A stretch of DNA of 64,000 nt from Pseudomonadales bacterium (lineage in GTDB: Bacteria > Pseudomonadota > Gammaproteobacteria > Pseudomonadales > JAHRWD01): assembly GCA_029210125.1 (NCBI GenBank), contig JARGPR010000011.1, positions 1 to 64,000 on the forward strand, written 5' to 3'. The notes beneath the pieces were generated by a model. It did not search any database, was not told the DNA's origin, and worked only from the letters and a program-made list of their open reading frames with translations. The number at the start of each line of letters is the position of its first letter. The stretch's first letter is position 1. The translations under genes were made by a program, and so were the position numbers. Of this stretch, positions 35,927 through 48,439 are shown piece after piece.

Positions 35927-37117
35927 ATGTTTGAAATAGTAGATAACGTACCGCAAAGCGCTGTAATAAAAGTGTTTGGTGTCGGCGGGGGTGGCGGAAA
36001 TGCCGTCGAACATATGGCGGGCAACAGCAATATCGACGGTGTGGATTTTATCTGTGCCAATACGGACTCTCAGGCATTAAATAGCCTGACTGCAAAAACG
36101 CTACTGCAGCTCGGCACCGGCGTAACGAAGGGACTGGGCGCAGGTGCGCATCCTGAGGTTGGCCGTCAGGCAGCGATGGAGGATAAAGATCGCATTTCCG
36201 AGGTACTTAAGGGCGCCGATATGGTGTTTATTACCGCGGGGATGGGGGGCGGAACGGGAACCGGGGCAGCACCGGTGGTGGCGCAGATTGCCAAGGATAT
36301 GGGTATCCTGACGGTTGCGGTGGTCACCAAGCCATTTCCGTTTGAGGGAAAAAAACGAGCCCGCATTGCGGATTCAGGCCTGGAGGAGTTAAGCCAACAT
36401 GTGGACTCGTTAATTACGATTCCAAATGAAAAGCTGCTCGCGGTACTAGGTGAACAAACTTCATTGGTAGAAGCTTTTGCGGCAGCGAACGATGTACTCG
36501 AGGGTGCGGTTAAAGGTATTGCTGAACTGATCGTCAACCCTGGCATGATGAATGTCGATTTTGCCGATATTCGTACGGTCATGTCTGAAATGGGTATGGC
36601 GATGATGAGTACTGGTGAGGCTAGCGGTGAAAACAGAGCGTACGAAGCGGTTCAAGCAGCACTGCACAGTAAGTTATTGGAAAATATCAACCTTCAAGGT
36701 GCCAAGGGCATTCTGGTTAATATTACTGCCGGCCCTAACTTATCCCTGGGTGAGTTCTCTACAGTTGGTGATACCATCGAAGACTTTGCGTCGGACAACG
36801 CCACAGTAGTTACGGGCACAGTTATCGATGAAGGCCTTGGCGACACCTTGCGGGTAACCATCGTGGCAACAGGTATAGGTGATACGAAATTGACCCTTGT
36901 GCCACCTGTAGGAGTAGAACAGCCCTCAAATTTGGGTGCATCCGCTCAAGAACCAACCCATGAATATGTCGAGCTGGAGCAACCTGTTTACGAGGCAGAG
37001 AGCCATGCCGCGACAGCAAAATCCAGAAAAAGGGAGGTTGAGGCGGTACTGGAAGATGGTGAATTGAATATGGATTATCTGGATATTCCTGCCTTTTTAC
37101 GTCGTCAGGCTGACTAA
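35927..37117 (+). CDS. ftsZ: cell division protein FtsZ
   Basis: FtsZ, 396 residues, the tubulin-like GTPase that forms the division ring. The tubulin signature GGGTGTG is at residues 107-113, with VFGVGGGGGNAVEHM before it. The linker of about 60 residues leads to the conserved terminal peptide DYLDIPAFLRRQAD that binds FtsA and ZipA. The ATG at 35927 is preferred over the GTG at 35921 because AGGGGG lies at proper distance and MFEIVDN matches the family start. A strong terminator follows, and lpxC, often next in gammaproteobacteria, is absent here. Confidence 0.99.
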   Translation: MFEIVDNVPQSAVIKVFGVGGGGGNAVEHMAGNSNIDGVDFICANTDSQALNSLTAKTLLQLGTGVTKGLGAGAHPEVGRQAAMEDKDRISEVLKGADMVFITAGMGGGTGTGAAPVVAQIAKDMGILTVAVVTKPFPFEGKKRARIADSGLEELSQHVDSLITIPNEKLLAVLGEQTSLVEAFAAANDVLEGAVKGIAELIVNPGMMNVDFADIRTVMSEMGMAMMSTGEASGENRAYEAVQAALHSKLLENINLQGAKGILVNITAGPNLSLGEFSTVGDTIEDFASDNATVVTGTVIDEGLGDTLRVTIVATGIGDTKLTLVPPVGVEQPSNLGASAQEPTHEYVELEQPVYEAESHAATAKSRKREVEAVLEDGELNMDYLDIPAFLRRQAD

Positions 37118-37130
37118 ATTAATATTGTGA

Positions 37131-37166
37131 ATACAACAAAGCCCGCATTCGCGGGCTTTGTTGTAT
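37131..37166 (+). terminator. strong terminator after ftsZ
   Basis: A perfect 16-bp stem (37131-37146 with 37151-37166) has a four-base loop ATTC and a T-rich 3' arm. It closes the dcw cluster. Confidence 0.88.
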
Positions 37167-38068
37167 AAGAGCGTTCAAGGATAACGCTTAACTAAAATCA
37201 TTCTTAGTTGAGAAAAATTGAAATATCTTCAGTGCCAATAACCCCCGATTGAGCCCACCTTCAGCTGTGCTTGTTTTTACTCGTTCTGGCTAGCACTTTG
37301 CATTTAACCCATTGATGCAAAACCGCGACTTCCCTCTACGCAACCTCATATTTGACTAATATGGAGTACCCGTGATCTTGGGGATCAATACAAAGAATGC
37401 TGGGCGAGTTTGCTGCATAACTGTTTTCTATTCTGCATACCTAAACAGGTCAAATTAGTGACCTGTATCTCAAATTTGAATATCTAACTCAGATTGATGG
37501 AAATATGCTACTACATTTAAAACATCCGATAAAAAATGTCGAAATGGTTCCCAATTAGCCATTGCAGAATGTTCGTCTATACTTTTTTCCTATTCATCAG
37601 GTGGTACTAAGAGTACATAGTATTACTTAGGATTTTGAATGATGAGACGACTGTGGAACGGATGCTGCAAAATAATAACAACTAGTAAGTTAGCAGAACT
37701 AGCAAAGCTCAAAAACTAGGATTATTTAGCGCAACCCCTCCTCAATCGCCAGATGATATCGCAAAACAGTTTAGCCTGTTTGTTGTGTCTAGCTACTTCT
37801 GATGAGCGATAGATCTAGGGTTTTACGTAGAGACACTGTACACCAGATAAAAAATTAACTCTGGTGACCAGACCTGCTATGAGACCCAAATTTACGTCGT
37901 GAATAGGGTCAAAATCCGAGAGTATATCGGCTAAGTTATTCGGCCAAAATTGGAATCGACATCTACGCTTACCTAACTCCACGCAAAAAATCGATAGCAG
38001 GGTCCGATCAATTACGTGGCTGAAATCGCCAGTCAAATAGTGGAATCTATGATACCGGAGCAAAAAGC
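37167..38068. other. 900-bp spacer without a credible gene
   Basis: An AT-rich stretch between the dcw cluster and the pil-chp cluster. It holds a 22-bp palindrome at 37445-37466, a 10-bp palindrome TCAAATTTGA at 37470-37479, and a GGAG ribosome binding site at its right end for the next gene. An open frame of 178 codons on the minus strand (37815-38351) reaches into the next gene and shows no family features. The stretch may hold regulatory sites or be remnant DNA. Confidence 0.6.
37445..37466. repeat. 22-bp palindrome, candidate operator
   Basis: ACAGGTCA, six bases, then TGACCTGT. The arms are perfect over 8 bp. With the 10-bp palindrome four bases downstream it looks like a site for a dimeric regulator. 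The target is unknown. Confidence 0.4.
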
Positions 38069-38893
38069 ATGAAATGGTGGCACGGGAAGAAACATCAGTA
38101 TATGGGGGTGCAGATTCCCTATGTGCTGGCAGCTCTATTGGGGCTAGGGTTGATAACTTCTGGCCAACGCGTCGAAGCCAATGCATCAAGTGAGGACGTA
38201 CAAGAAATTGTAGAAGCTTGTATGTTGTCGAACCGTATGTTGAAGAACTACGCGTTGATAGGAATGGGTGTAGTTTACCAGGACCCTGTTGCGGATTTAC
38301 AGGCGGGTATGGTTGAAATGAGTATGTATATGTCAAACGGTGCCCTAGCAAGTCAGGGCCTAAAAGAAGAGTTAGGGAATTCCCTTCGTAAGTTAGACCA
38401 GGATTGGAAGGGAATTGAACCGTTGCTAACTAATACTCCAAGCAAGGCAAGTGTTTTGGATCTACGCATCAAAATCGAGAATTTTTCAAAAAAATGTGAA
38501 ATTGTTGTAGAGGCATTAGCGATCGACACTCAGATCGAGGGTGAGCAAGATCTTGTACTTACCGCTAAATTGGGTATGGAGGTACAGCGTCTTGCTGCTC
38601 TATATATGATTGAGGCATGGGGAGCCGAGCAACCTCAGTACTACTCAGAAGTTGATAAGATAAAGTCCCAGTTCAAAACAAATTATGAGAAGTTGACTGA
38701 GACCGAAAATACTATTGGATCTAAAGAGCTCAAAAAGGCACTAAAAAAACTTGATAACCAATTCTTGGTTTTTGGGTTTCTGGCCAGCAGTAAAAGCGGG
38801 AGATTTCAACCTACTAGAGCTGAAAAAATTTCCGAGGATGTATTCTATGAGGTTCGTGACATCCTGATACTGGAAGAGGAATTGCTACAATGA
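38069..38893 (+). CDS. exported protein with two PilJ N-terminal-like modules (first of pair)
   Basis: A 274-residue protein with an N-terminal signal or anchor (hydrophobic at about 17-32, possible cleavage near VEA-NAS) and then an all-helical body. Two segments look like the four-helix PilJ N-terminal sensor module: MLSNRMLKNYALIGMGVVY at about residues 52-70, and AKLGMEVQRLAALYMIEAWG in the second half. No HAMP, transmitter or second membrane segment is present, so it can only sense or bind in the periplasm. A GGAG ribosome binding site precedes the ATG. The ATG of the next gene overlaps its TGA, and pilG follows, suggesting a Pil-Chp role. The function is unknown; the domain call is by eye. 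Confidence 0.75.
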   Translation: MKWWHGKKHQYMGVQIPYVLAALLGLGLITSGQRVEANASSEDVQEIVEACMLSNRMLKNYALIGMGVVYQDPVADLQAGMVEMSMYMSNGALASQGLKEELGNSLRKLDQDWKGIEPLLTNTPSKASVLDLRIKIENFSKKCEIVVEALAIDTQIEGEQDLVLTAKLGMEVQRLAALYMIEAWGAEQPQYYSEVDKIKSQFKTNYEKLTETENTIGSKELKKALKKLDNQFLVFGFLASSKSGRFQPTRAEKISEDVFYEVRDILILEEELLQ

Positions 38894-39678
38894 AAAACAT
38901 CTACCGGCTTCTACTAACAAAAATTGTTGTCATCTTATTGTTATCTCAAGTGACTATTGCATCTGCAACTAATGAACAAGAATTGCATATATTGGAGGCA
39001 GCCGAAAATATTGCATTTATTAGTCAGAAACTTCCAATGGCTTATTTTTATAAAGGAAAGGGTATTCGAGCGTCGGTTGCGAAACGAAATATAAATGATG
39101 GCTTGATGGATCTTGATAAAGACCTTAAGTATCTAGAGAGCGTGGTTCTTGGCGCTGAAGAAAAAAATGTAATGCTATTTTTTGGCTTCACGCGAGATGA
39201 AATGAAGGAGGCTCTGGCTGAGGACTACAGTCTTGAAAACGGAGCGTTGATAATGGATTACAGTGAGTCGCTTTTAGAGGGGGCTGAGCTGATTTCCGCT
39301 AAACATAAGAACTTGAATGAAATATCAGAAACCATGCTGGTAACTGTAGAAAAAATGGAATTTCTATTGGAAAGAATCAACAAATTCTATATCGCTCACT
39401 ACTCAGGATTGAAAGATGAGGTTAATGTTTCACAGCTCAAATTGGCGGTAGATGAATTTGAATCAAATCTCATAAAAATAACGGTGTATAAGGGGTTTCA
39501 CGCAACTCAGAAATCTAGTGTGAAAAAAATAAATGGATTCTGGCCAATTGCCAAACGATTCTTTCTTGGTGTGGAAGAGGGGTCGCTACCGGTAATTGTA
39601 ATGGCCTCTTCTTCAAGTTTAAAAAAGGAGCTTGGGAAAATACATGGTTTTTTTCGTAAAGAAGCTATTGGGGGCTAG
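38890..39678 (+). CDS. exported protein with PilJ N-terminal-like modules (second of pair)
   Basis: A 262-residue protein coupled to the previous gene by an ATGA overlap. A clear signal peptide ends near residue 26 (IASA-TNE). The first half carries ISQKLPMAYFYKGKGIRAS followed by a helix ending LDKDLKYLE, the pattern of a PilJ N-terminal sensor module; a second, weaker copy (VEKMEFLLERINKFYIAHYSG) lies in the other half. There is no transmitter domain. It looks like a diverged paralogue of its neighbour. The pair could be soluble periplasmic partners of PilJ or of the pilus, which is inference. Base use is more AT-rich than in the dcw genes. Confidence 0.75.
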   Translation: MKNIYRLLLTKIVVILLLSQVTIASATNEQELHILEAAENIAFISQKLPMAYFYKGKGIRASVAKRNINDGLMDLDKDLKYLESVVLGAEEKNVMLFFGFTRDEMKEALAEDYSLENGALIMDYSESLLEGAELISAKHKNLNEISETMLVTVEKMEFLLERINKFYIAHYSGLKDEVNVSQLKLAVDEFESNLIKITVYKGFHATQKSSVKKINGFWPIAKRFFLGVEEGSLPVIVMASSSSLKKELGKIHGFFRKEAIGG

Positions 39679-39793
39679 TATTGTATCCTCCAGTGATTAG
39701 GAATAATTGGGAAAGGAACGATTTTTTTAGGTTTTTGCACGTTAAACGTTACTGTAAAGTTGCGGTGCTAATTTAGACAGGTTGGACCAGTAT

Positions 39794-40192
39794 ATGTTGG
39801 CAGATAAAAATGAAAACAATACCTGTATGACAATTCTTGTAGTTGATGACAGCAAAATGATTCGGGTTACCACAAAAAAAATACTACTCAAAGCAGGGTA
39901 CGATGTTGTTTTGGCTACGGACGGATTTGACGCGTTATCAAAGATCGTCGAGTACCGGCCCGGTTTGATTATTCTGGATATTATGATGCCAGATATTGAT
40001 GGTTATGAAACATGCACCCTAATCAAACAGCATCGAGAATTTAGGAATATACCGATAATTATGTTGTCTGGAAAAAATAGCAGATTTGACCGATCAAGAA
40101 GCAAACTCGCGGGATTTAATCAGTGTCTTACAAAGCCGTTTAATGAACATGGTCTAATTTCAGCCATCAATAATATTACTGCAGTAAATTAG
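39794..40192 (+). CDS. pilG: twitching motility response regulator PilG
   Basis: A stand-alone receiver domain, 132 residues from the ATG at 39794. The acidic pair is Asp18-Asp19, the phospho-acceptor is Asp62 in LDIMMPD, and the conserved Lys is in CLTKPF. The stretch ATDGFDALSKI and DGYETCTLIKQH match PilG of Pseudomonas closely. In that system PilG is phosphorylated by ChpA and promotes pilus extension and cAMP synthesis. Starts at TTG 39782 and ATG 39827 are also possible. It follows the two PilJ-like genes after about 115 bp. Confidence 0.9.
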   Translation: MLADKNENNTCMTILVVDDSKMIRVTTKKILLKAGYDVVLATDGFDALSKIVEYRPGLIILDIMMPDIDGYETCTLIKQHREFRNIPIIMLSGKNSRFDRSRSKLAGFNQCLTKPFNEHGLISAINNITAVN

Positions 40193-40261
40193 AATGTTCT
40201 ATTTTGGTTGTTCAATTATCAGTACATTTCTACAAAAAATATTTGGAGTTTGAACAAGGTT

Positions 40262-40636
40262 ATGGCGAAAATTTTGATTGTCGATGATTCGGCAGCAGAA
40301 GCTCATGTGTTGGAAGAAATTTTGAAGTTGGATGGGCACGAATCAATTAGAGCGTCAAGCGGTGAAGAAGGGCTGGCGATGGCGATTGAAGAGTTACCTG
40401 ATTTGATTGTCATGGATGTCGTTATGCCTGGGATGAACGGCTTTAAAGCCACTCGAAAAATCCATAGAAACTCATCAACCAAAGAGATTCCTATCATGAT
40501 AGTTACAACCAAAGATCAGGATACCGATATCGAATGGGGGTTGAGTCAGGGGGCTGCGGATTATATGGCTAAACCCGTTAACTCAACATTATTTCGAGAG
40601 AAAGTGAATACTCTTTTGGGAACCGTGGATAGCTAA
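40262..40636 (+). CDS. pilH: twitching motility response regulator PilH
   Basis: A second stand-alone receiver, 124 residues, starting MAKILIVDDS at the ATG at 40262. Phospho-acceptor Asp52 in MDVVMPGMNG, and MAKPVN holds the conserved Lys. The sequence TTKDQDTDIEWGLSQGA is distinctive of PilH. In Pseudomonas PilH opposes or sinks the PilG signal and aids retraction. The frame is open from 40208, but the added residues are absent from the family. It precedes pilI by two bases. Confidence 0.92.
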   Translation: MAKILIVDDSAAEAHVLEEILKLDGHESIRASSGEEGLAMAIEELPDLIVMDVVMPGMNGFKATRKIHRNSSTKEIPIMIVTTKDQDTDIEWGLSQGAADYMAKPVNSTLFREKVNTLLGTVDS

Positions 40637-40638
40637 AC

Positions 40639-41175
40639 GTGAGCAATCATTCTTCAATAGTCCTCGATAGCTTACTGCGCATGAATGAGCGTGCGCAGCG
40701 TGAACAGGCTAATGATCATTTGTTTTCTGAGCACCAGGATGATTGGCGAGCTCTGTCATTTATTTTACGTGGGCGAACAGTGACCGCTGCGTCTGGCGAA
40801 ATGACGGAAATTATCGAAATACCTGAGTCGATCACTATGGTTCCTGACACTCCGGAGTGGATGGTGGGGCTGACAAATTTTCATGGCGAAGTATTGCCCA
40901 TTTCAGATCTACAGTGTTTTGTCGGCGGGTCACCGATTGCACGGGATTACCAGTCCAAAATTCTCGTTATAAAAAACCGTGGTAAGTATGTTGGTTTGAT
41001 GGTGCCCTCGGTGCTGGGTATTCGATATTTCCCAAAAAACAGCAAGAGACAATACCAGGCGCTCGATGATCGACTCGACCTTTTTATCTACGATGAATTT
41101 GAGTTTGAGGGGCAGGTTTGGCCTGTAGTCAGTATGGCTGCGATATTGGCCGATAAACAGTTTTTGATGGAGTAG
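40639..41175 (+). CDS. pilI: CheW-like adaptor PilI
   Basis: A CheW-domain coupling protein, 178 residues, GTG start two bases after pilH. The adaptor domain runs from about residue 35 to the end, with VPDTPEWMVGLTNFHGEVLPISDLQCFVGG and a terminal WPVVSMAAILADKQF typical of PilI. It should connect PilJ to the ChpA kinase. pilJ follows after 100 bp. Confidence 0.92.
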   Translation: MSNHSSIVLDSLLRMNERAQREQANDHLFSEHQDDWRALSFILRGRTVTAASGEMTEIIEIPESITMVPDTPEWMVGLTNFHGEVLPISDLQCFVGGSPIARDYQSKILVIKNRGKYVGLMVPSVLGIRYFPKNSKRQYQALDDRLDLFIYDEFEFEGQVWPVVSMAAILADKQFLME

Positions 41176-41275
41176 GTTGGTGTGTCGCTTACTGTACGCA
41201 ATATAAAAAATCGATAATTGAATTTGATGTACGTGAACGCTTACAGCGATAAATTACATATGAGGAACAATCGAA

Positions 41276-43369
41276 ATGGCTAAGGTATTTAGGTTTGGCA
41301 CAGGACTTGCCAACTATATGGTTATTATTGTCTCGTTGGCATTGGCCATTTCGTTAGCAATGACCATATGGGTTTTCGTTGCTCAAAGCATACATAAGGA
41401 AAATTTTAATCAACATTTGTCCGATGCCTCCGAGCTGCAGGTGTTGGCCCACCAGATTGCAAAATATGCGGTTGAATCTGGTTCGGGCATCGAAAGCTCA
41501 TTCCAGTCTCTGGAGAAAGCCAGAGACCGTTCGGCTAGTTTGATAACCGCCTTAAAAGACGGTTCGCCTGAAAGGGGATTACCACCCTCGCCTGAAGAGA
41601 TTCGGCCTACCCTGCTTAAGGTGGATGCGGCATGGCAAGACCTCGAAACCCATGTTAACTCAATTCTATTGAGCCAGGCAGTTATCGTACATGCCGATGA
41701 GATCGTCGGGAATATGAAAAGTGTTCTACCCAACTTTAAACAGATCGTGGGCATAGCAGCCGACCAACTGGTTGGAAAAGGCACCAATAGTCAGGTTTAT
41801 CACGCTACCAATCTTCTCTATATCGCTCAACGTATTGATACCAACCTTGGCGAAGTGCTCGAGGGTGGATTGACCACTGTATTTGCACTTGATCAACTTA
41901 CACAAAATACAGATAGGTTGGAGATTGTTGTCACAGCCTTGACCGAGGGCGATAAAGCGCTCGGAATACAGGCGGTTAAGAACAAGGTGGTTAGAGAATC
42001 GTTGCTTGAAATTCTCCGGCAACTGGATGGTATCCGGGTTTATCGTGATGAACTGCTCGGTATGATTGCTGAATTGTTGCCAGCATTGAGTACTCTAGGC
42101 GCTATTGATGACGAAGAAAACGATGACTATAAAGATACCGGTGGCAGTTCGGTGCTTACCGTGGCGTCAGAAAATTTGGCATCACTGGATGTTGAGTTAA
42201 TGGATTTTTATAGAACCTCAGCTGGTGAGGTGCAGCTAGCAGGAGTTACCGTAGGTTCGGGTTTCGCCATTGCGCTAGTTGTGGTTTCCACATCTATTTT
42301 TCTATTCTTGAGTTACTTGATTGTGTATCAAGCGAGGGCTAGAGAGCGAGAGGTGAGCGAACAAAATGAAAGTAACCAGGCTGCGATTCGGAAGCTACTA
42401 CGTGAAATGGGTAACCTTGCCAATGGTGATTTGTCTATTGAGGCGACCGTAACCGAGGACATTACTGGCGCTATTGCTGATTCGATAAACGCGTCGGTTG
42501 AGAGTATGCGTGACGTGGTGTTTTCCATTAATGATACCTCTGAGAAAGTGTCTAGTGCGGCGGAAAAAAACCAGTCAACTATTCGTGAGTTGGTTGTCGC
42601 GGCGGAACAGCAAGATAAAGATCTAGTAGGTGCGACAGAGGTCAGTAAAAGCATGGCCGAGACCCTGCAAGTTATGGCATCTAAAGCTGAGGTTTTGGCG
42701 GAAGTCGCAACCAATTCTCTTGAGCTTGCGGAAAAAGGTGGTGGGGCTGCGCACAAGAATATTGATGGTATGGGTGTACTTCGAGAGCAAATTCAAGGGA
42801 CATCAAAACGGATTAAACGTCTGGGTGAGAGTTCACAAGAAATTGGCAGTATTGTTGGTCTGATTAATGGTATTACCGATCAGACTAATATCTTGGCGAT
42901 GAACGCCTCCATGCAGGCTGCTGCAGCTGGAGATGCCGGTCGGGGTTTTTCTATTGTTGCGGATGAAGTACAGCGTCTTGCGGAGCGGTCTGGTCGTGCG
43001 ACCAAACAAATTGAGACACTCGTGAATGCAATTCAGTCTGATACCTCTGAAGCGGTCGCGTCAATGGAGCTGAGTATTGGTGAGGTATTAAATGGTACCG
43101 GTCTGGCGGAGGAAGCCGGAAGAGCACTCGACGACATTCAAAAAGCGTCGAATCAGGTTACCAAAGAGACCATGGAAATGGTGGAGTCCGCAAAACATCA
43201 ATCTGAACAGGCCTCGGGGTTACGGGAAACGATGCACACGATTCAGGAAATCACCGAACAGATGTCCGAGGGTATTAGCTCTACGGCCAGCGGAATCGTC
43301 TATCAGGCCGATAACGTTCAGAAGCTCCGGAACTCAGTAACAGAATTTACTTTGCCGGAGGAACAATAA
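41276..43369 (+). CDS. pilJ: type IV pilus methyl-accepting chemoreceptor PilJ
   Basis: PilJ, 697 residues. Topology: membrane segment near residues 13-37, a periplasmic sensor of two helical PilJ modules to about 320, a second membrane segment (VGSGFAIALVVVSTSIFLFLSY), then HAMP and a cytoplasmic signalling domain. The hairpin tip reads NASMQAAAAGDAGRGFSIVADEVQRLAERS, matching PilJ rather than the classic chemoreceptor tip. It senses surface contact or pilin and controls ChpA. After its TAA the same frame stays open for 60 codons (see the small ORF at 43391). No pilK methyltransferase gene follows. Confidence 0.95.
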   Translation: MAKVFRFGTGLANYMVIIVSLALAISLAMTIWVFVAQSIHKENFNQHLSDASELQVLAHQIAKYAVESGSGIESSFQSLEKARDRSASLITALKDGSPERGLPPSPEEIRPTLLKVDAAWQDLETHVNSILLSQAVIVHADEIVGNMKSVLPNFKQIVGIAADQLVGKGTNSQVYHATNLLYIAQRIDTNLGEVLEGGLTTVFALDQLTQNTDRLEIVVTALTEGDKALGIQAVKNKVVRESLLEILRQLDGIRVYRDELLGMIAELLPALSTLGAIDDEENDDYKDTGGSSVLTVASENLASLDVELMDFYRTSAGEVQLAGVTVGSGFAIALVVVSTSIFLFLSYLIVYQARAREREVSEQNESNQAAIRKLLREMGNLANGDLSIEATVTEDITGAIADSINASVESMRDVVFSINDTSEKVSSAAEKNQSTIRELVVAAEQQDKDLVGATEVSKSMAETLQVMASKAEVLAEVATNSLELAEKGGGAAHKNIDGMGVLREQIQGTSKRIKRLGESSQEIGSIVGLINGITDQTNILAMNASMQAAAAGDAGRGFSIVADEVQRLAERSGRATKQIETLVNAIQSDTSEAVASMELSIGEVLNGTGLAEEAGRALDDIQKASNQVTKETMEMVESAKHQSEQASGLRETMHTIQEITEQMSEGISSTASGIVYQADNVQKLRNSVTEFTLPEEQ

Positions 43370-43390: not shown

Positions 43391-43552
43391 GTGAAGCTTG
43401 ATCGAACCGCTCGGCCGCTCAGGCTGGGTACTAGCCACAAGAAGTATCGTTTACGGGTAATTTTATTACCAGATGTTAGTGGTATCGGGGCTTCAATGAA
43501 TAGAGACATTCTCTATCACCAACAATGCGGACACGGTTTTTGCAGCCTATGA
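43391..43552 (+). CDS. possible small basic ORF between pilJ and chpA
   Basis: A 53-codon frame with GTG start at 43391, preceded by GGGG at five bases. Its TGA (43550-43552) overlaps an in-frame ATG of chpA (43549) in the ATGA arrangement seen in coupled genes. It lies in the same frame as pilJ, seven codons after the pilJ stop. The product would be basic in its first half and ends with three Cys. No family is recognised. It may be a real coupling peptide, a decayed remnant, or chance. Confidence 0.3.
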   Translation: MKLDRTARPLRLGTSHKKYRLRVILLPDVSGIGASMNRDILYHQQCGHGFCSL

Positions 43553-46500
43553 ATAAAACAGTCGTCGAAGGTGCGCGCAAAGAGTTATCCCTCGTGATGG
43601 TCAGCGTAGAGGGTTACCTTGAGGATGGTACAGGTCTTGATATTGCGCGGACCAGCCTCAACAAATTGATGAATTTGCTCATCTTTATTGAGCTGCGTGA
43701 GGCCGCTGAAGTAACCAACAGTATATCGATAACCATCATGCAGGTAGTCGATAAGGCGCTCGTATTTGAAGAACAACATTGGAGTGCGCTAATTGATGCG
43801 CTTGTTGGGTTAGATTCTTTTCTTGCCAGCTGTTCCAATAACCCAGAGATCGTTTCAAAAAGCCTTGAATATTCTCGCGAGGCGATATCCTCGTTAATGT
43901 TACTGCAGGGAGACGTATCTGTCTCCGATGTTGACCATACACTTACAGCGAATCGAACTGCTCAAGCGCTAGCGGTTTTAGATGGTTCAGGCTTGTCAGC
44001 TGAGCATGAACCAACGGGGCTGGTAGAGTTAACCTCAGAACTTAACAATCTTGCCAACGAAACCACTACTGAAGCAGAGCAATCAGGCAACGAGCTTGAT
44101 GATATTGACCCAGAAATTCTTGATATTTTTCAGGAAGAGGTGGTTGAAGAGCTGGAGGCGATTCAGAGTCAATACGCGATCTGGAAACGGGATCCCACTG
44201 ATAAAGAGGCCATCGAAACCGCGCGCCGCAGTTTCCATACGATCAAGGGTAGCGGCAATGTTGTTGGCGCAACGACTTTAGGTGGTTTCGCTGCATCAGG
44301 TGAAGCGCTTTTTGGTCGTGTAATAGTTGGTCAATTGATACACAGTCCTGGTTTACTAGTATTACTGGACGATTTCGTGGCAACCCTTGCTACTGTTATT
44401 GAACGTTTATTCAGTGGTAAGTCGCTGCCATTGGCCGGCATGAGTGTCATCGAAGAACGCGCCATTAATTTTCCCCAGGGCGAACAAGCCACACCTGTTA
44501 CCGCTTCCTCAGCATCAGCCGCCGATCAAGAGCCTGACGTGGTCGCTTTGGTTGAAAGTGACAGGGATAGTGAAAGTGACGAACAGGCTCAACCAGATGA
44601 CATCGAACTGTTTTGCAGCATGGAAGATGGTTTATACGAGATTTTTGTTCCTGAATCTAATCTACATATCGATACCATCAGGGCCTTTATCGAGAGTGCT
44701 AATGAATCCCCACAAACAGTGACCGCCGAGTTGGCGACCGCTATTCATACGCTACATGGTAGTTCACGCTTGGCGGGCGCGGAAGCGATGACCGCGCTAA
44801 GTGACGTGATGGAGGGATACTGCAGTTCCTTACTAAAACTATCAGCAATCTGTGATTCTGGAAGCTTGGAACTCCTCAGTCAATATTCGAGCACCATGCG
44901 TGAGGCAGTGTGTGCAATTAATACACCGTTAGAAAACGCCCCAGAATGGTCACCGTTATATGAAGAAATAAAACGTACCAAGCAAGCTCTAATAAGCTCG
45001 ATTGCTGAGCAGGAAAACGGCACCGTTGCAGCAGAAAATTCTGCTCAGATGGATGCTTCAGTATTCCTTGTGAAAGCGATCGGTAACATGGCGGAACTGC
45101 ATGAGAGCTTCGCCGCATGGACCGCTTCGTCGGATTGTTCAAAGGCTCGAGCTAACTTTGGTGTAGCGCTAAATAAATTCAGAACTAATGTTGAGGTTGC
45201 TCAGCTTACCGACATGGCTAATTTGATTCTTTTAATGGAATCTATGCTGAATGCGGCACCAAATTTTGACCCTAAGGTCATTGCGCATATTCATGAAGGC
45301 CTTAGCTGCCTAGAGGATGCACTAGATACTTTATACCTCGAACAGCCGTTCACGGGACTCGAGCAAATAATAGACAAGTTGCAAGGGGAATTGGACTCAT
45401 ATAAAGAGGAGAACCAAGAAGAGAGTGAGACTGAAACGGTTGCTGTGCAAGATCAGGTAGACTTGCGGAACGAATCGAATAAAACGATAGAAACGGTAGA
45501 TGAGGAGGAAGCAGATGAAGATTTTGACTTCCTTGAGTTTGACTTTATTGATACCGATGAAGAGATCGATCCAGAGGTTCTAGAACTTTTCCTGGAGGAA
45601 GCGGGAGAGCTGGTCGATCAACTAGAGGAGGCGTATGGCGCTTGGCTGCTTGATACGAGCTCTATAGATGCGATGGATGCACAGCTGCGGCACCTGCATA
45701 CGTTGAAAGGGAATGCACTGGTAGCAAACCTGCGTTCCTTAGGTGGTTTAGGTCACTTACTGGAATCGTTATTCGAGCGACTCGTATCTGGAGAGCAGGT
45801 CTATAGCGAAAAATTATCGGCGCTTATTCGAGCTGCATTTGACGGGATTCATACCAGTGTTAGCAGGCTTGCCAAGGATAAACCTCGACCACAGTTGCAA
45901 CCGTTGATCGATGCCGTTAAAGCGGCCATTCTAGGCCAGGAATGGGGCGATTACTCGATTTCTGACGATACAAATCAGGATATAGAAACCGGGGATGCAC
46001 ACGATGGCGAAGCTCGAGTAGAGGTCGAGCTTGAGCCAGTCGGCATTTCAGTCTCATCAGAGCAAGCAGAAGAACCCGCTTTTGACGGAAATTTGATCCG
46101 AGCCGAAGCCCCCGCGCCTTTGCAGGCTGAAAAAGATGTTGGCGAAGATCAACGTGTTCGAGTGTTATCGAGCGCATTGGACAAGTTAATCAATATATCG
46201 GGCGAGATCAGCATTACCCAGACTCATCTTGATATCCAGCAGAGCAAAGATAAATATAACCTGCTGGAACTCAAGACAACGATTGCACGTTTGCAGCGCC
46301 AACTTGGAACGTTGAATCTGGAGACAGAAGCTCAAATTATATCCCGGCACCAGGGCGAACATTCAGAACAGCACGATGCCTCATTTGATCCGCTTGAAAT
46401 GGATCGGTATTCCACTCTGCAACAAATAACCCGCTCGATTACAGAGACCGTAGACGACTTATCGGAAATTGGCGATATTCTGGATAAATCTTCCGACGAA

Positions 46501-47982
46501 ACCGATAGCTTGATGCTAAAGGCATCCCTTGCCGCCAGGGACGTGCGCGACGGTCTGCAAAAAACGCTTATGATTCCGTTAGTGGATCAATTTACCAGGT
46601 TCCAGCGAGTGGTACGTATGGCCGCGCAGGGTGAAGGTAAAGAAGTTGAGTTAGAAATGTTGGGCGGTGAAGGCCATATTGAGCGTAATCTGCTTGAAAA
46701 AATGGTTGCTCCAATCGAGCATCTGTTAAGAAATGCAGTAGCGCATGGTATTGAATTGCCCGATGTTCGTGAAGGCCGACTACGAGAAGGTTGCAAACCT
46801 CGACAAGGGAAAATCCAGCTCTCTTTTGCGCGGGAAGTTTCCTATATGGAAATTGTGGTTTCCGACGATGGTGCCGGTATAAACACCGACCTGATCCGTG
46901 AGGCAGCTATTCAGCGGGGCATGCTGGAACCCGATACTGAAATCAGCGATAACGAGTTGTATCAGTATATTATGGCCCCAGGATTTTCAACTATCAGTGA
47001 AGTGTCGGCAATTGCCGGGCGCGGCGTTGGAATGGATGTGGTTATGGAGGGTATCCAGAAACTGGGTGGCTCTATTGTGATCTCATCAGAGTTGGGGAAA
47101 GGCACACGGTTTACCATTCGATTACCAGCGATGTTATCACTGGTTGAGTCGCTAATGATTGAGGTTGCTGACGAGGTATACGCTATCCCCCACGGTGGTG
47201 TCGACAGTGTAATTAAAATGCGAGCCGCTGATGTCGTGCCGAATTATGAGCAGGAAAACCCTTCACTGGAATACGAAGGTAAGATTTATGAGCTGTATTA
47301 CTTAGGCTCCATGCTTGGTCTTTCTGCGCCCCCATCTGCTTCGGCAGTAGTAGGTGAAGTTCCACTGTTGTTGGCTCAGGTCGGCTCGCGTGCGGTTGCC
47401 GTTCAGGTGGATTATCTAATCGGCACCTCGAAAATACAGGTTATCCCAATAGGGGACCAGTTCAAGCGCTTCCCCTGGTTTGTTGATGGAACGCTATTGT
47501 CCAGCGGCAAAATAGCACTGCTGCTTGATGTTAAGACACTACTGCGCGAGCGAGAAACACAACCACAACTGAAACATGACGTTATCGGCGTAGCTGCCGA
47601 GAAGAAACCAAACATCATGATTGTCGATGATTCGATTACCTTGCGTAAAATTACTTCACGTATATTTGAGCGCCAGAATATGGATGTTGTGACCGCGAAA
47701 GATGGTGTCGAGGCGGTAGCTATGCTGCAGGAACATATTCCCGACGTCATGTTGCTGGATGTAGAAATGCCACGTATGAATGGCTACGAGCTTGCACAAC
47801 AGATGGGTAACTCCGATCTGTTAAAGGATATTCCGATCATTATGATCACCTCCCGAACAGGCGAGAAGCACAAACAGCGAGGTTTGGAGCTCGGAGTGAG
47901 ATATTACCTCGGTAAACCTTTCCACGAGCCTGAACTATTGGAGTGTGTTCACAAATTGTTAGAAGAAAAATCAAATGGATGA
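43525..47982 (+). CDS. chpA: hybrid chemotaxis histidine kinase ChpA
   Basis: The CheA-like kinase of the Pil-Chp system, 1485 residues, well short of Pseudomonas ChpA (about 2,470). Three phosphotransfer domains have histidines: His238 in FHTIKGSG, His408 in HTLHGSS and His725 in HTLKGNA. Two more helical regions (about 1-130 and 520-620) lack the His. An acidic linker precedes dimerisation, the ATPase (HLLRNAVAHGIE, DDGAGI, GRGVGMD), a CheW domain and a C-terminal receiver with Asp1412. The start may be 43525 or 43549, the latter overlapping the small upstream ORF. chpC overlaps its end by 8 bp. Confidence 0.95.
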   Translation: MRTRFLQPMNKTVVEGARKELSLVMVSVEGYLEDGTGLDIARTSLNKLMNLLIFIELREAAEVTNSISITIMQVVDKALVFEEQHWSALIDALVGLDSFLASCSNNPEIVSKSLEYSREAISSLMLLQGDVSVSDVDHTLTANRTAQALAVLDGSGLSAEHEPTGLVELTSELNNLANETTTEAEQSGNELDDIDPEILDIFQEEVVEELEAIQSQYAIWKRDPTDKEAIETARRSFHTIKGSGNVVGATTLGGFAASGEALFGRVIVGQLIHSPGLLVLLDDFVATLATVIERLFSGKSLPLAGMSVIEERAINFPQGEQATPVTASSASAADQEPDVVALVESDRDSESDEQAQPDDIELFCSMEDGLYEIFVPESNLHIDTIRAFIESANESPQTVTAELATAIHTLHGSSRLAGAEAMTALSDVMEGYCSSLLKLSAICDSGSLELLSQYSSTMREAVCAINTPLENAPEWSPLYEEIKRTKQALISSIAEQENGTVAAENSAQMDASVFLVKAIGNMAELHESFAAWTASSDCSKARANFGVALNKFRTNVEVAQLTDMANLILLMESMLNAAPNFDPKVIAHIHEGLSCLEDALDTLYLEQPFTGLEQIIDKLQGELDSYKEENQEESETETVAVQDQVDLRNESNKTIETVDEEEADEDFDFLEFDFIDTDEEIDPEVLELFLEEAGELVDQLEEAYGAWLLDTSSIDAMDAQLRHLHTLKGNALVANLRSLGGLGHLLESLFERLVSGEQVYSEKLSALIRAAFDGIHTSVSRLAKDKPRPQLQPLIDAVKAAILGQEWGDYSISDDTNQDIETGDAHDGEARVEVELEPVGISVSSEQAEEPAFDGNLIRAEAPAPLQAEKDVGEDQRVRVLSSALDKLINISGEISITQTHLDIQQSKDKYNLLELKTTIARLQRQLGTLNLETEAQIISRHQGEHSEQHDASFDPLEMDRYSTLQQITRSITETVDDLSEIGDILDKSSDETDSLMLKASLAARDVRDGLQKTLMIPLVDQFTRFQRVVRMAAQGEGKEVELEMLGGEGHIERNLLEKMVAPIEHLLRNAVAHGIELPDVREGRLREGCKPRQGKIQLSFAREVSYMEIVVSDDGAGINTDLIREAAIQRGMLEPDTEISDNELYQYIMAPGFSTISEVSAIAGRGVGMDVVMEGIQKLGGSIVISSELGKGTRFTIRLPAMLSLVESLMIEVADEVYAIPHGGVDSVIKMRAADVVPNYEQENPSLEYEGKIYELYYLGSMLGLSAPPSASAVVGEVPLLLAQVGSRAVAVQVDYLIGTSKIQVIPIGDQFKRFPWFVDGTLLSSGKIALLLDVKTLLRERETQPQLKHDVIGVAAEKKPNIMIVDDSITLRKITSRIFERQNMDVVTAKDGVEAVAMLQEHIPDVMLLDVEMPRMNGYELAQQMGNSDLLKDIPIIMITSRTGEKHKQRGLELGVRYYLGKPFHEPELLECVHKLLEEKSNG

Positions 47983-48439
47983 AGCTGTAGATCAAAGTAG
48001 CAGAGAGCTGCACGCGTGCGTAGTACCCTGGCGTGAGGGCGCTAACCTGTTGCTACCTAATGCCGTAATTGCCGAAACACTTTATCACCTGGAAATCATT
48101 CCGTTAGCACACGAGTCGAGTTGGATTCAGGGTGGTGTGGAATGGCGCGGACAAACGGTGCCGCTAGTATCATTTGATGGAGTTCCTGATTTGCCAGCCC
48201 ATGTGACCGATGAGACCAGGCGTGTACTGATCTGTCATACACTCTCTTTTAACGAGGAAGATGCCTACGTGGCGATTGATTTTTTTCGGCTGCCGAGGCT
48301 GGTATTTATCGACGAATCATCCTTCTCTGTTGTTGAGGAGGATAGGGAAACGAATGACTGGCCATTCGTAGCGAGGATTGATGTGCGCGGCAGCATCGCC
48401 TATGTTTTGGATATGGAAAAATTGTGCAGTTTGTTCTGA
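47975..48439 (+). CDS. chpC: CheW-like protein ChpC
   Basis: A small CheW-fold protein, 154 residues, starting inside the end of chpA. GGVEWRGQTVPLVSFDGVPDLP in the middle is the typical CheW-type strand pattern, and the C-terminal GSIAYVLDMEKLCSLF completes the fold. The position right after ChpA matches ChpC of Pseudomonas, although there chpB (methylesterase) lies between chpA and chpC. It may be a second adaptor for other receptors. The chp set ends here. Confidence 0.82.
   Translation: MDEAVDQSSRELHACVVPWREGANLLLPNAVIAETLYHLEIIPLAHESSWIQGGVEWRGQTVPLVSFDGVPDLPAHVTDETRRVLICHTLSFNEEDAYVAIDFFRLPRLVFIDESSFSVVEEDRETNDWPFVARIDVRGSIAYVLDMEKLCSLF

Follow-up and report, generated by a model that had tools for sequence, protein, structure and literature searches.

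Two overlapping genes directly upstream of pilG in the window (the whole stretch of 64,000 nucleotides analysed here) encode proteins, designated A and B, which on sequence comparison are two lineages within a family of stand-alone tandem PilJ-domain proteins. The PilJ domain and its fold are already known; for the pair, the analysis shows its ancestry, a modelled architecture of two helical bundles per protein, loss of the nitrate box (N-box), conserved pairing and its neighbourhood. It can be proposed, with nearly an even chance of being correct, that a periplasmic A–B complex which does not sense nitrate feeds a Chp-type receptor, here the PilJ-like receptor of a second Pil–Chp cluster.

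A coupled gene pair at the head of a second Pil–Chp cluster

The original prediction of two translationally coupled genes with an ATGA overlap agrees with the open reading frames found (Table 1), and, also as predicted, no HAMP or transmitter (MCP signalling) domain was detected in A or B by Pfam profile search. The signal peptides were judged by eye, from a hydrophobic N terminus and an AxA-like end, rather than by a predictor. A second species of the genus, represented by the NORP341 metagenome-assembled genome (G001; L020/L090), carries the same pair in the same gene order, with about 71–73% identity for A and about 79–82% for B, the full range of values being 69–82%. Between the two species dN was 0.23 for A and 0.14 for B with dS saturated, a pattern like that of neighbouring pilG, pilH and pilJ, which argues that A and B are real genes under purifying selection. 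In both species the pair heads the cluster on the same strand, directly upstream of pilG, and the B–pilG gap of about 100–150 bp (104–151) is not conserved between them. Upstream of A lies ftsZ, followed by ~950 bp (37118–38068) without a convincing gene; this interval is scarcely conserved relative to its 605-bp counterpart in NORP341. The gene lpxC, a frequent 3′ neighbour of ftsZ, is absent between ftsZ and gene A. No known RNA family was found within 37000–41500, and promoter and terminator matches did not rise above those in shuffled sequence.

The pair had been taken to head the Pil–Chp cluster. Its place directly before pilG is as described, but the cluster is the second of its kind in the genome (G000). 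A canonical set of pilG, pilH, pilI, pilJ, chpA and chpC is found on contig C14 (146000–166400; L190, L191), ~6 kb away from two PilT/PilU-type ATPase genes that adjoin each other; its chpA encodes ~1850 aa, and pilJ and chpA have no pilK between them. Compared with L172, the C14 set reaches 72% identity for PilG and 45% for PilJ, against 49 and 39% for the window set, and the C14 proteins are mostly the nearer of the two to PilGHIJ of other Gammaproteobacteria. For the window PilJ, no full-length PilJ outside the genus exceeded ~41% identity among 294 genomes of the order. The canonical set on C14 and the divergence of the window PilJ together identify the window cluster as a second, genus-specific Pil–Chp cluster, so that by sequence comparison the system headed by the pair is accessory rather than the main one. 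Unlike the canonical cluster of the Pseudomonas type, it has no pilT/pilU setting and no pilK, and no chpB was seen among the window open reading frames. The only two CheR proteins of the genome are encoded on contig C2, which leaves both Pil–Chp clusters without a methyltransferase of their own.

Table 1. Positions of the A–B pair, its decayed N-boxes and the adjoining Pil–Chp genes in the window
Feature	Position	Strand	Basis or remark
Gene A	38069..38893	+	274-aa exported tandem PilJ-type protein, two four-helix bundles (predicted); ORF, relatives, AlphaFold
Probable signal peptide of A, about residues 1–37	38069..38179	+	By eye; low-confidence model N terminus
A module 1, decayed N-box EIVEACMLSNR	38204..38236	+	Aligned with basal KQRMLTQ / RQRMLSQ boxes
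Cys51 codon of A, at nitrate-binding Arg site, module 1	38219..38221	+	Alignment
Cys143 codon of A, partner cysteine, helix 4 of module 1	38495..38497	+	Alignment; model helix limits
A module 2, decayed N-box LTAKLGMEVQR, Arg to Gly	38558..38590	+	Alignment
Gene B	38890..39678	+	262-aa exported tandem PilJ-type protein (predicted), paralogue of A; ORF, tree, AlphaFold, hhalign
ATGA overlap, A stop/B start	38890..38893	+	Sequence
Probable signal peptide of B, residues 1–26, ASA end	38890..38967	+	By eye; low-confidence model N terminus
B module 1, decayed N-box AAENIAFISQK, Arg to Ala	38998..39030	+	Alignment
B module 2, decayed N-box TVEKMEFLLER, Arg to Glu	39343..39375	+	Alignment
pilG-like response regulator	39782..40192, probable ATG 39830	+	PF00072; 46% to C14 PilG
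pilH-like response regulator	40262..40636	+	PF00072; 48% to C14 PilH
pilI-like CheW protein	40639..41175	+	PF01584
pilJ-like chemoreceptor	41276..43369	+	PF13675 + PF00015; 33% to C14 PilJ, 39% to L172 PilJ
chpA-like kinase	43525..47982	+	Profile and sequence comparison
chpC-like CheW protein	47975..48439	+	PF01584

Relatives of A and B in other genomes

Searching with the PilJ N-terminal family, which had been suggested as a check, gave a divided answer: PF13675 matched neither window A nor window B, even at E ≤ 1, but it did match 25 of 29 aligned members of the A family (and 2 of the 16 sequences in the B alignment). PF08376 (NIT) was likewise absent from the Pfam matches of A and B at E ≤ 1. 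The Pfam and NCBIfam matches that did appear (RelE, Erp_C and sperm-tail names) lay below the cut-off and were rejected as chance. By direct BLASTP A and B did not match each other, whereas their profiles aligned with an hhalign probability of 99.5%, so their homology is visible only with profiles. The B profile also matched the sensor region of the PilJ receptor, weakly (E about 0.05). When sequences lacking the N-box were used alone, hhalign gave the internal repeat a probability of just 3 and 1%, rising to 97 and 60% once N-box-intact relatives were added; the claim of tandem modules thus rests on the relatives and the models.

Homologues were sought first in 57 genomes of the order, next in 391, and later in named genomes. 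Those of the order are proteins of ~270 aa, apparently exported (by eye); in most of those scanned, PF13675 matches twice and the nitrate box GRQRMLSQR likewise occurs in two copies. Such N-box-intact stand-alone proteins (e.g. L021–L027, L063, L065, L136) resemble A and B in length, apparent export and the presence of two modules; unlike A and B, they are encoded by single genes, keep their N-boxes and are unlinked to chp clusters. Close relatives of A within the order were confined to its own genus and G011, and those of B to the genus itself.

A genus-restricted pair was, however, overturned by the named genomes, where A relatives of about 36–48% identity were found, mostly with a B relative directly behind. 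These occur in Gammaproteobacteria metagenome-assembled genomes (L091, L093, L094, L097) and also in Desulfobulbaceae, cable bacteria among them (L095, L096, L098, L100, L107), more distant pairs being found in L104 and in a Sulfurovum (L105), so that A–B pairs are distributed over Gammaproteobacteria, cable bacteria and Sulfurovum. Overlap of the NTGA type between A and B was seen in ten pairs (L090, L091, L093, L095, L096, L097, L098 twice, L100 and L107), spanning both Gammaproteobacteria and Desulfobulbaceae. In Candidatus Electrothrix aarhusensis (L098:8197-11718) the pair is duplicated in tandem as A-B-A-B, and the gene order in L104 and L105 is A-B-B′. Another Sulfurovum (L102:2070-2510) has a hemerythrin-like protein, recognised by eye, behind A in place of B.

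Predicted fold

AlphaFold models were built for A with 29 relatives (pLDDT 85.6, pTM 0.81) and for B with 16 (pLDDT 89.0, pTM 0.83). Each model has eight helices arranged as two four-helix bundles and, together with the two PF13675 matches in homologues, this bears out the proposal that each protein holds two copies of a sensor module. The top PDB match of both models by Foldseek, and the best over the full length, was the NIT domain of NasR (4akk), with a query TM of 0.62 for A and 0.55 for B; over ~280 columns the probability was 0.97–1.00, yet the E-values of 0.04–0.12 are weak by themselves. One module of A matched the ligand-binding domain (LBD) of McpN (6gcv) with a TMt of 0.72 and a probability of 0.99. 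With Foldseek E-values of at least 0.04, the fold matches support rather than prove kinship with NasR and McpN.

NasR is a nitrate-responsive antiterminator whose NIT domain, the nitrate receptor, has two four-helix bundles per chain, as the models of A and B do; NasR carries an ANTAR RNA-binding domain besides and keeps both arginines (PMC8199190). A and B differ from it in being apparently exported, in lacking an effector domain and a Pfam NIT match, and in having lost the paired arginines. McpN, whose LBD belongs to PF13675, shares with A and B the module fold, the family ancestry and a recognisable N-box position. It is, in contrast, a membrane chemoreceptor whose chains each bear a single module and dimerise around nitrate, and its nitrate arginine, which has a key role, is contributed by two chains on a two-fold axis (PMC6381276); A and B are predicted to be soluble, with two modules per chain and the N-box lost. 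Tandem PilJ proteins look like a one-chain version of the nitrate-arginine pairing in McpN and NasR.

The periplasmic region of the PilJ receptor, a Pil–Chp member (8wdf, 7zjr), has two PilJ domains by sequence and no N-box, and its crystal fold is described as HBM-like (Cui 2024, as cited in PMC12632253). These two crystals ranked 9 and 21 for the B model (TM 0.25; probability 0.35 and 0.21) and lay outside the top 50 PDB matches of the A model. A and B thus lack the HBM-like sensor fold as well as the HAMP/MCP signalling domain of the receptor, and the possibility that either is a copy of the local PilJ sensor was rejected on the fold search. The resemblance to the PilJ sensor originally noted by eye therefore held for the PilJ-domain family, as represented by McpN, in an apparently NasR-like layout, and failed for the crystal sensor fold of the PilJ receptor itself; prediction of each protein alone likewise returned four-helix bundles and, in A, a McpN-like module but a poor match to the PilJ crystal region.

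Loss of the nitrate boxes

In the alignment neither module of A or of B retains the GxxR/N-box arginine. Among N-box-less A sequences the module 2 site holds Gly, with Asn or Arg in two distant sequences; in the main derived B group the residue found at the module 1 site is Ala, Glu or Lys, and that at the module 2 site Glu, Ser, Thr or Leu. Intact N-boxes are, by contrast with the window pair, present in both A and the first B (B1) of L104 and L105, and G737 (L130) encodes another N-box-intact A–B pair. In a tree of 57 sequences the A and B clades were each supported at 100/98, with N-box-intact members at the base; the N-box-less A members form a single branch (100/100), and a single gene from Neptuniibacter and Pontibacterium is sister to the A clade (96/93). 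Taken with the N-box-intact relatives, the tree indicates that the window pair derives from nitrate-box proteins and lost the box later. Homology of window A and B to the PF13675 family is well supported through intermediates, namely A and B1 of L104 and L105, the tree and the profile comparison.

Cys51, at the site of the module 1 arginine, and Cys143 are both present in all N-box-less A sequences. In the model they fall in helix 1 (residues 41–65) and helix 4 (126–154), at the same height on what are expected to be antiparallel neighbouring helices, which makes a Cys51–Cys143 disulfide plausible. A separate single tandem PilJ lineage (L064 and L066, from G153 and G072) has also replaced the module 1 nitrate Arg with Cys, apparently independently of A.

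Neighbourhood of the pair in other lineages

Beyond the window genus, the pair was found beside a chemosensory cluster in cable bacteria and their relatives (L095, L096, L098, L100, L107). There, A–B lies tail-to-tail with a periplasmic-binding-protein (SBP) gene, followed on the opposite strand by genes for an MCP, CheW, an unknown protein and a ChpA-type kinase; being convergent, pair and cluster do not form one operon. The MCP of this cluster has no PF13675 match. In Neptuniibacter and Pontibacterium (and G313) a single A-like gene lies directly 3′ of a cluster in the order response regulator, CheY, CheW, MCP, ChpA-like; thirteen such loci from several species were counted, some being one genome held in two collections, and for two MCPs tested no Pfam sensor match was found. 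The tandem PilJ genes that end these Pil–Chp-like clusters (L109, L110, L112–L117 and L059–L062, from Neptuniibacter, Pontibacterium and relatives) have lost one N-box in some cases and keep both in others.

Elsewhere the pair, or A alone, stands between housekeeping genes (L092/L097, ald/ftsK and trxB-like) or amid unrelated ones (L091, L094), and several Gammaproteobacteria have a solitary pair with canonical pil–chp genes elsewhere in the genome. In the pair-bearing Sulfurovum L105 (G767) Pfam searches found no PilJ-type MCP. A constant place beside pil–chp genes, and beside pilG in particular, was thus rejected: most homologues in the wider family are unlinked, which goes against the original prediction at that level. 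Linkage to a ChpA-type cluster was nevertheless seen in 3 of 9 A-clade lineages (the window genus, cable bacteria and Neptuniibacter/Pontibacterium) against 0 of 20 other singles (Fisher p 0.023); set against an assumed background of 0.5–3%, 3 of 9 gives p values from 1e-5 to 2e-3. The lineages were counted by hand and the background rate is our own assumption, so these statistics are merely suggestive of linkage beyond chance in three lineages.

Discussion

In the scheme that we prefer, the ancestor would have been a stand-alone tandem PilJ protein with two N-boxes, which gave rise to a coupled A–B gene pair before the nitrate-binding arginines were lost; in A the site arginine would have become a cysteine, with a second, conserved cysteine as partner. 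Gene coupling, and the natural tendency of PilJ-type modules to pair, make a putative periplasmic heterodimer of A and B the most economical reading. In place of nitrate, such a complex may sense the state of the envelope, the redox state or a small ligand; in view of the cysteine pair, redox or oxidative folding is among the candidates. It would then report the cue by contacting the periplasmic portion of a Chp-type chemoreceptor, much as the accessory protein QseG directly binds and activates the four-helix-bundle sensor kinase QseE (PMC12691602). QseG serves solely as a works-like model of how a four-helix-bundle sensor can be acted on by a separate protein of the envelope; it differs from A and B in being an outer-membrane lipoprotein whose target is a histidine kinase, and no homology is claimed. 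Neighbourhood and such precedent suggest a regulatory role for the pair; export and the disulfide are presumed from the by-eye signal peptides and the model. Against receptor input stand the solitary pairs of several Gammaproteobacteria, the Sulfurovum L105 with no PilJ-type MCP by Pfam, the convergent orientation and PF13675-less MCP in cable bacteria, the unconserved B–pilG gap and the weak Foldseek E-values. Extended to a widespread two-protein module, devoid of the nitrate site and bearing the A cysteine pair, that provides Chp-type chemoreceptors, those of cable bacteria included, with an external input subunit, the proposal is possible though somewhat doubtful.

The main rival to receptor input, itself doubtful, is a free-standing envelope function: an independent periplasmic module with a structural, redox or envelope role, the A cysteines acting as a disulfide or redox switch, that lies near chemosensory clusters by chance. 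Unlinked pairs allow it, since A–B or A alone sits among housekeeping or unrelated genes in L092/L097, L091 and L094 and occurs in Sulfurovum L105, where no PilJ MCP was found by Pfam, and the conservation of Cys51 and Cys143 would suit a switch. It accords poorly with ancestry in a sensor family and with the three lineages in which the gene adjoins a ChpA-type cluster, which by the rough background estimate is unlikely to be chance.

The original prediction had offered two roles, soluble partners of PilJ or sinks competing with its sensor for pilin or another ligand. The partner role is possible, with some support from the neighbourhood in three lineages. The sink role is very improbable: soluble PilJ-type modules without a transmitter, adjoining pilG, are what a decoy would look like, but the fold resembles McpN and NasR while the PilJ crystals match poorly or not at all among the best hits, and the pair occurs in L105 without a detected PilJ-type receptor. 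As A and B do not closely copy the sensor of PilJ itself, competition with it is the less natural reading. Sensing of nitrate or nitrite through an altered site, steering pilus motility towards nitrate, is very improbable; the nearest solved folds are nitrate receptors and basal relatives keep both N-boxes, but A and B have lost, in both modules, the arginine that is key in McpN, and the PilJ LBD, which has no N-box, does not bind nitrate (PMC6381276).

Receptor input by the A–B pair would bear on how signals reach PilJ. Indirect input to PilJ through SBPs has been proposed (PMC12632253), and help from separate periplasmic binding proteins is so far a suggestion (PMC12632253, PMC10896506). A conserved, apparently exported pair of sensor-derived proteins heading a Pil–Chp cluster, and matched in two further lineages by relatives next to Chp-type clusters, provides a concrete and testable candidate part. 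In the open-access papers searched (subscription literature lay outside the scope), stand-alone tandem PilJ proteins, the A–B pair, loss of the N-box and the Chp link are undescribed, in keeping with the original statement that no description of such a pair was known. The family also displays, in living sequences, intermediates of a nitrate sensor turning into something else, including the change from Arg to Cys.

The open-access papers on cable bacteria that were searched do not mention PilJ or chemotaxis; in these organisms, a pair beside a chemosensory cluster may bear on the positioning of filaments in redox gradients. In cable bacteria (L167, L168, L169) a further genomic locus encodes a tandem PilJ protein with intact N-boxes, so that intact and N-box-less types coexist.
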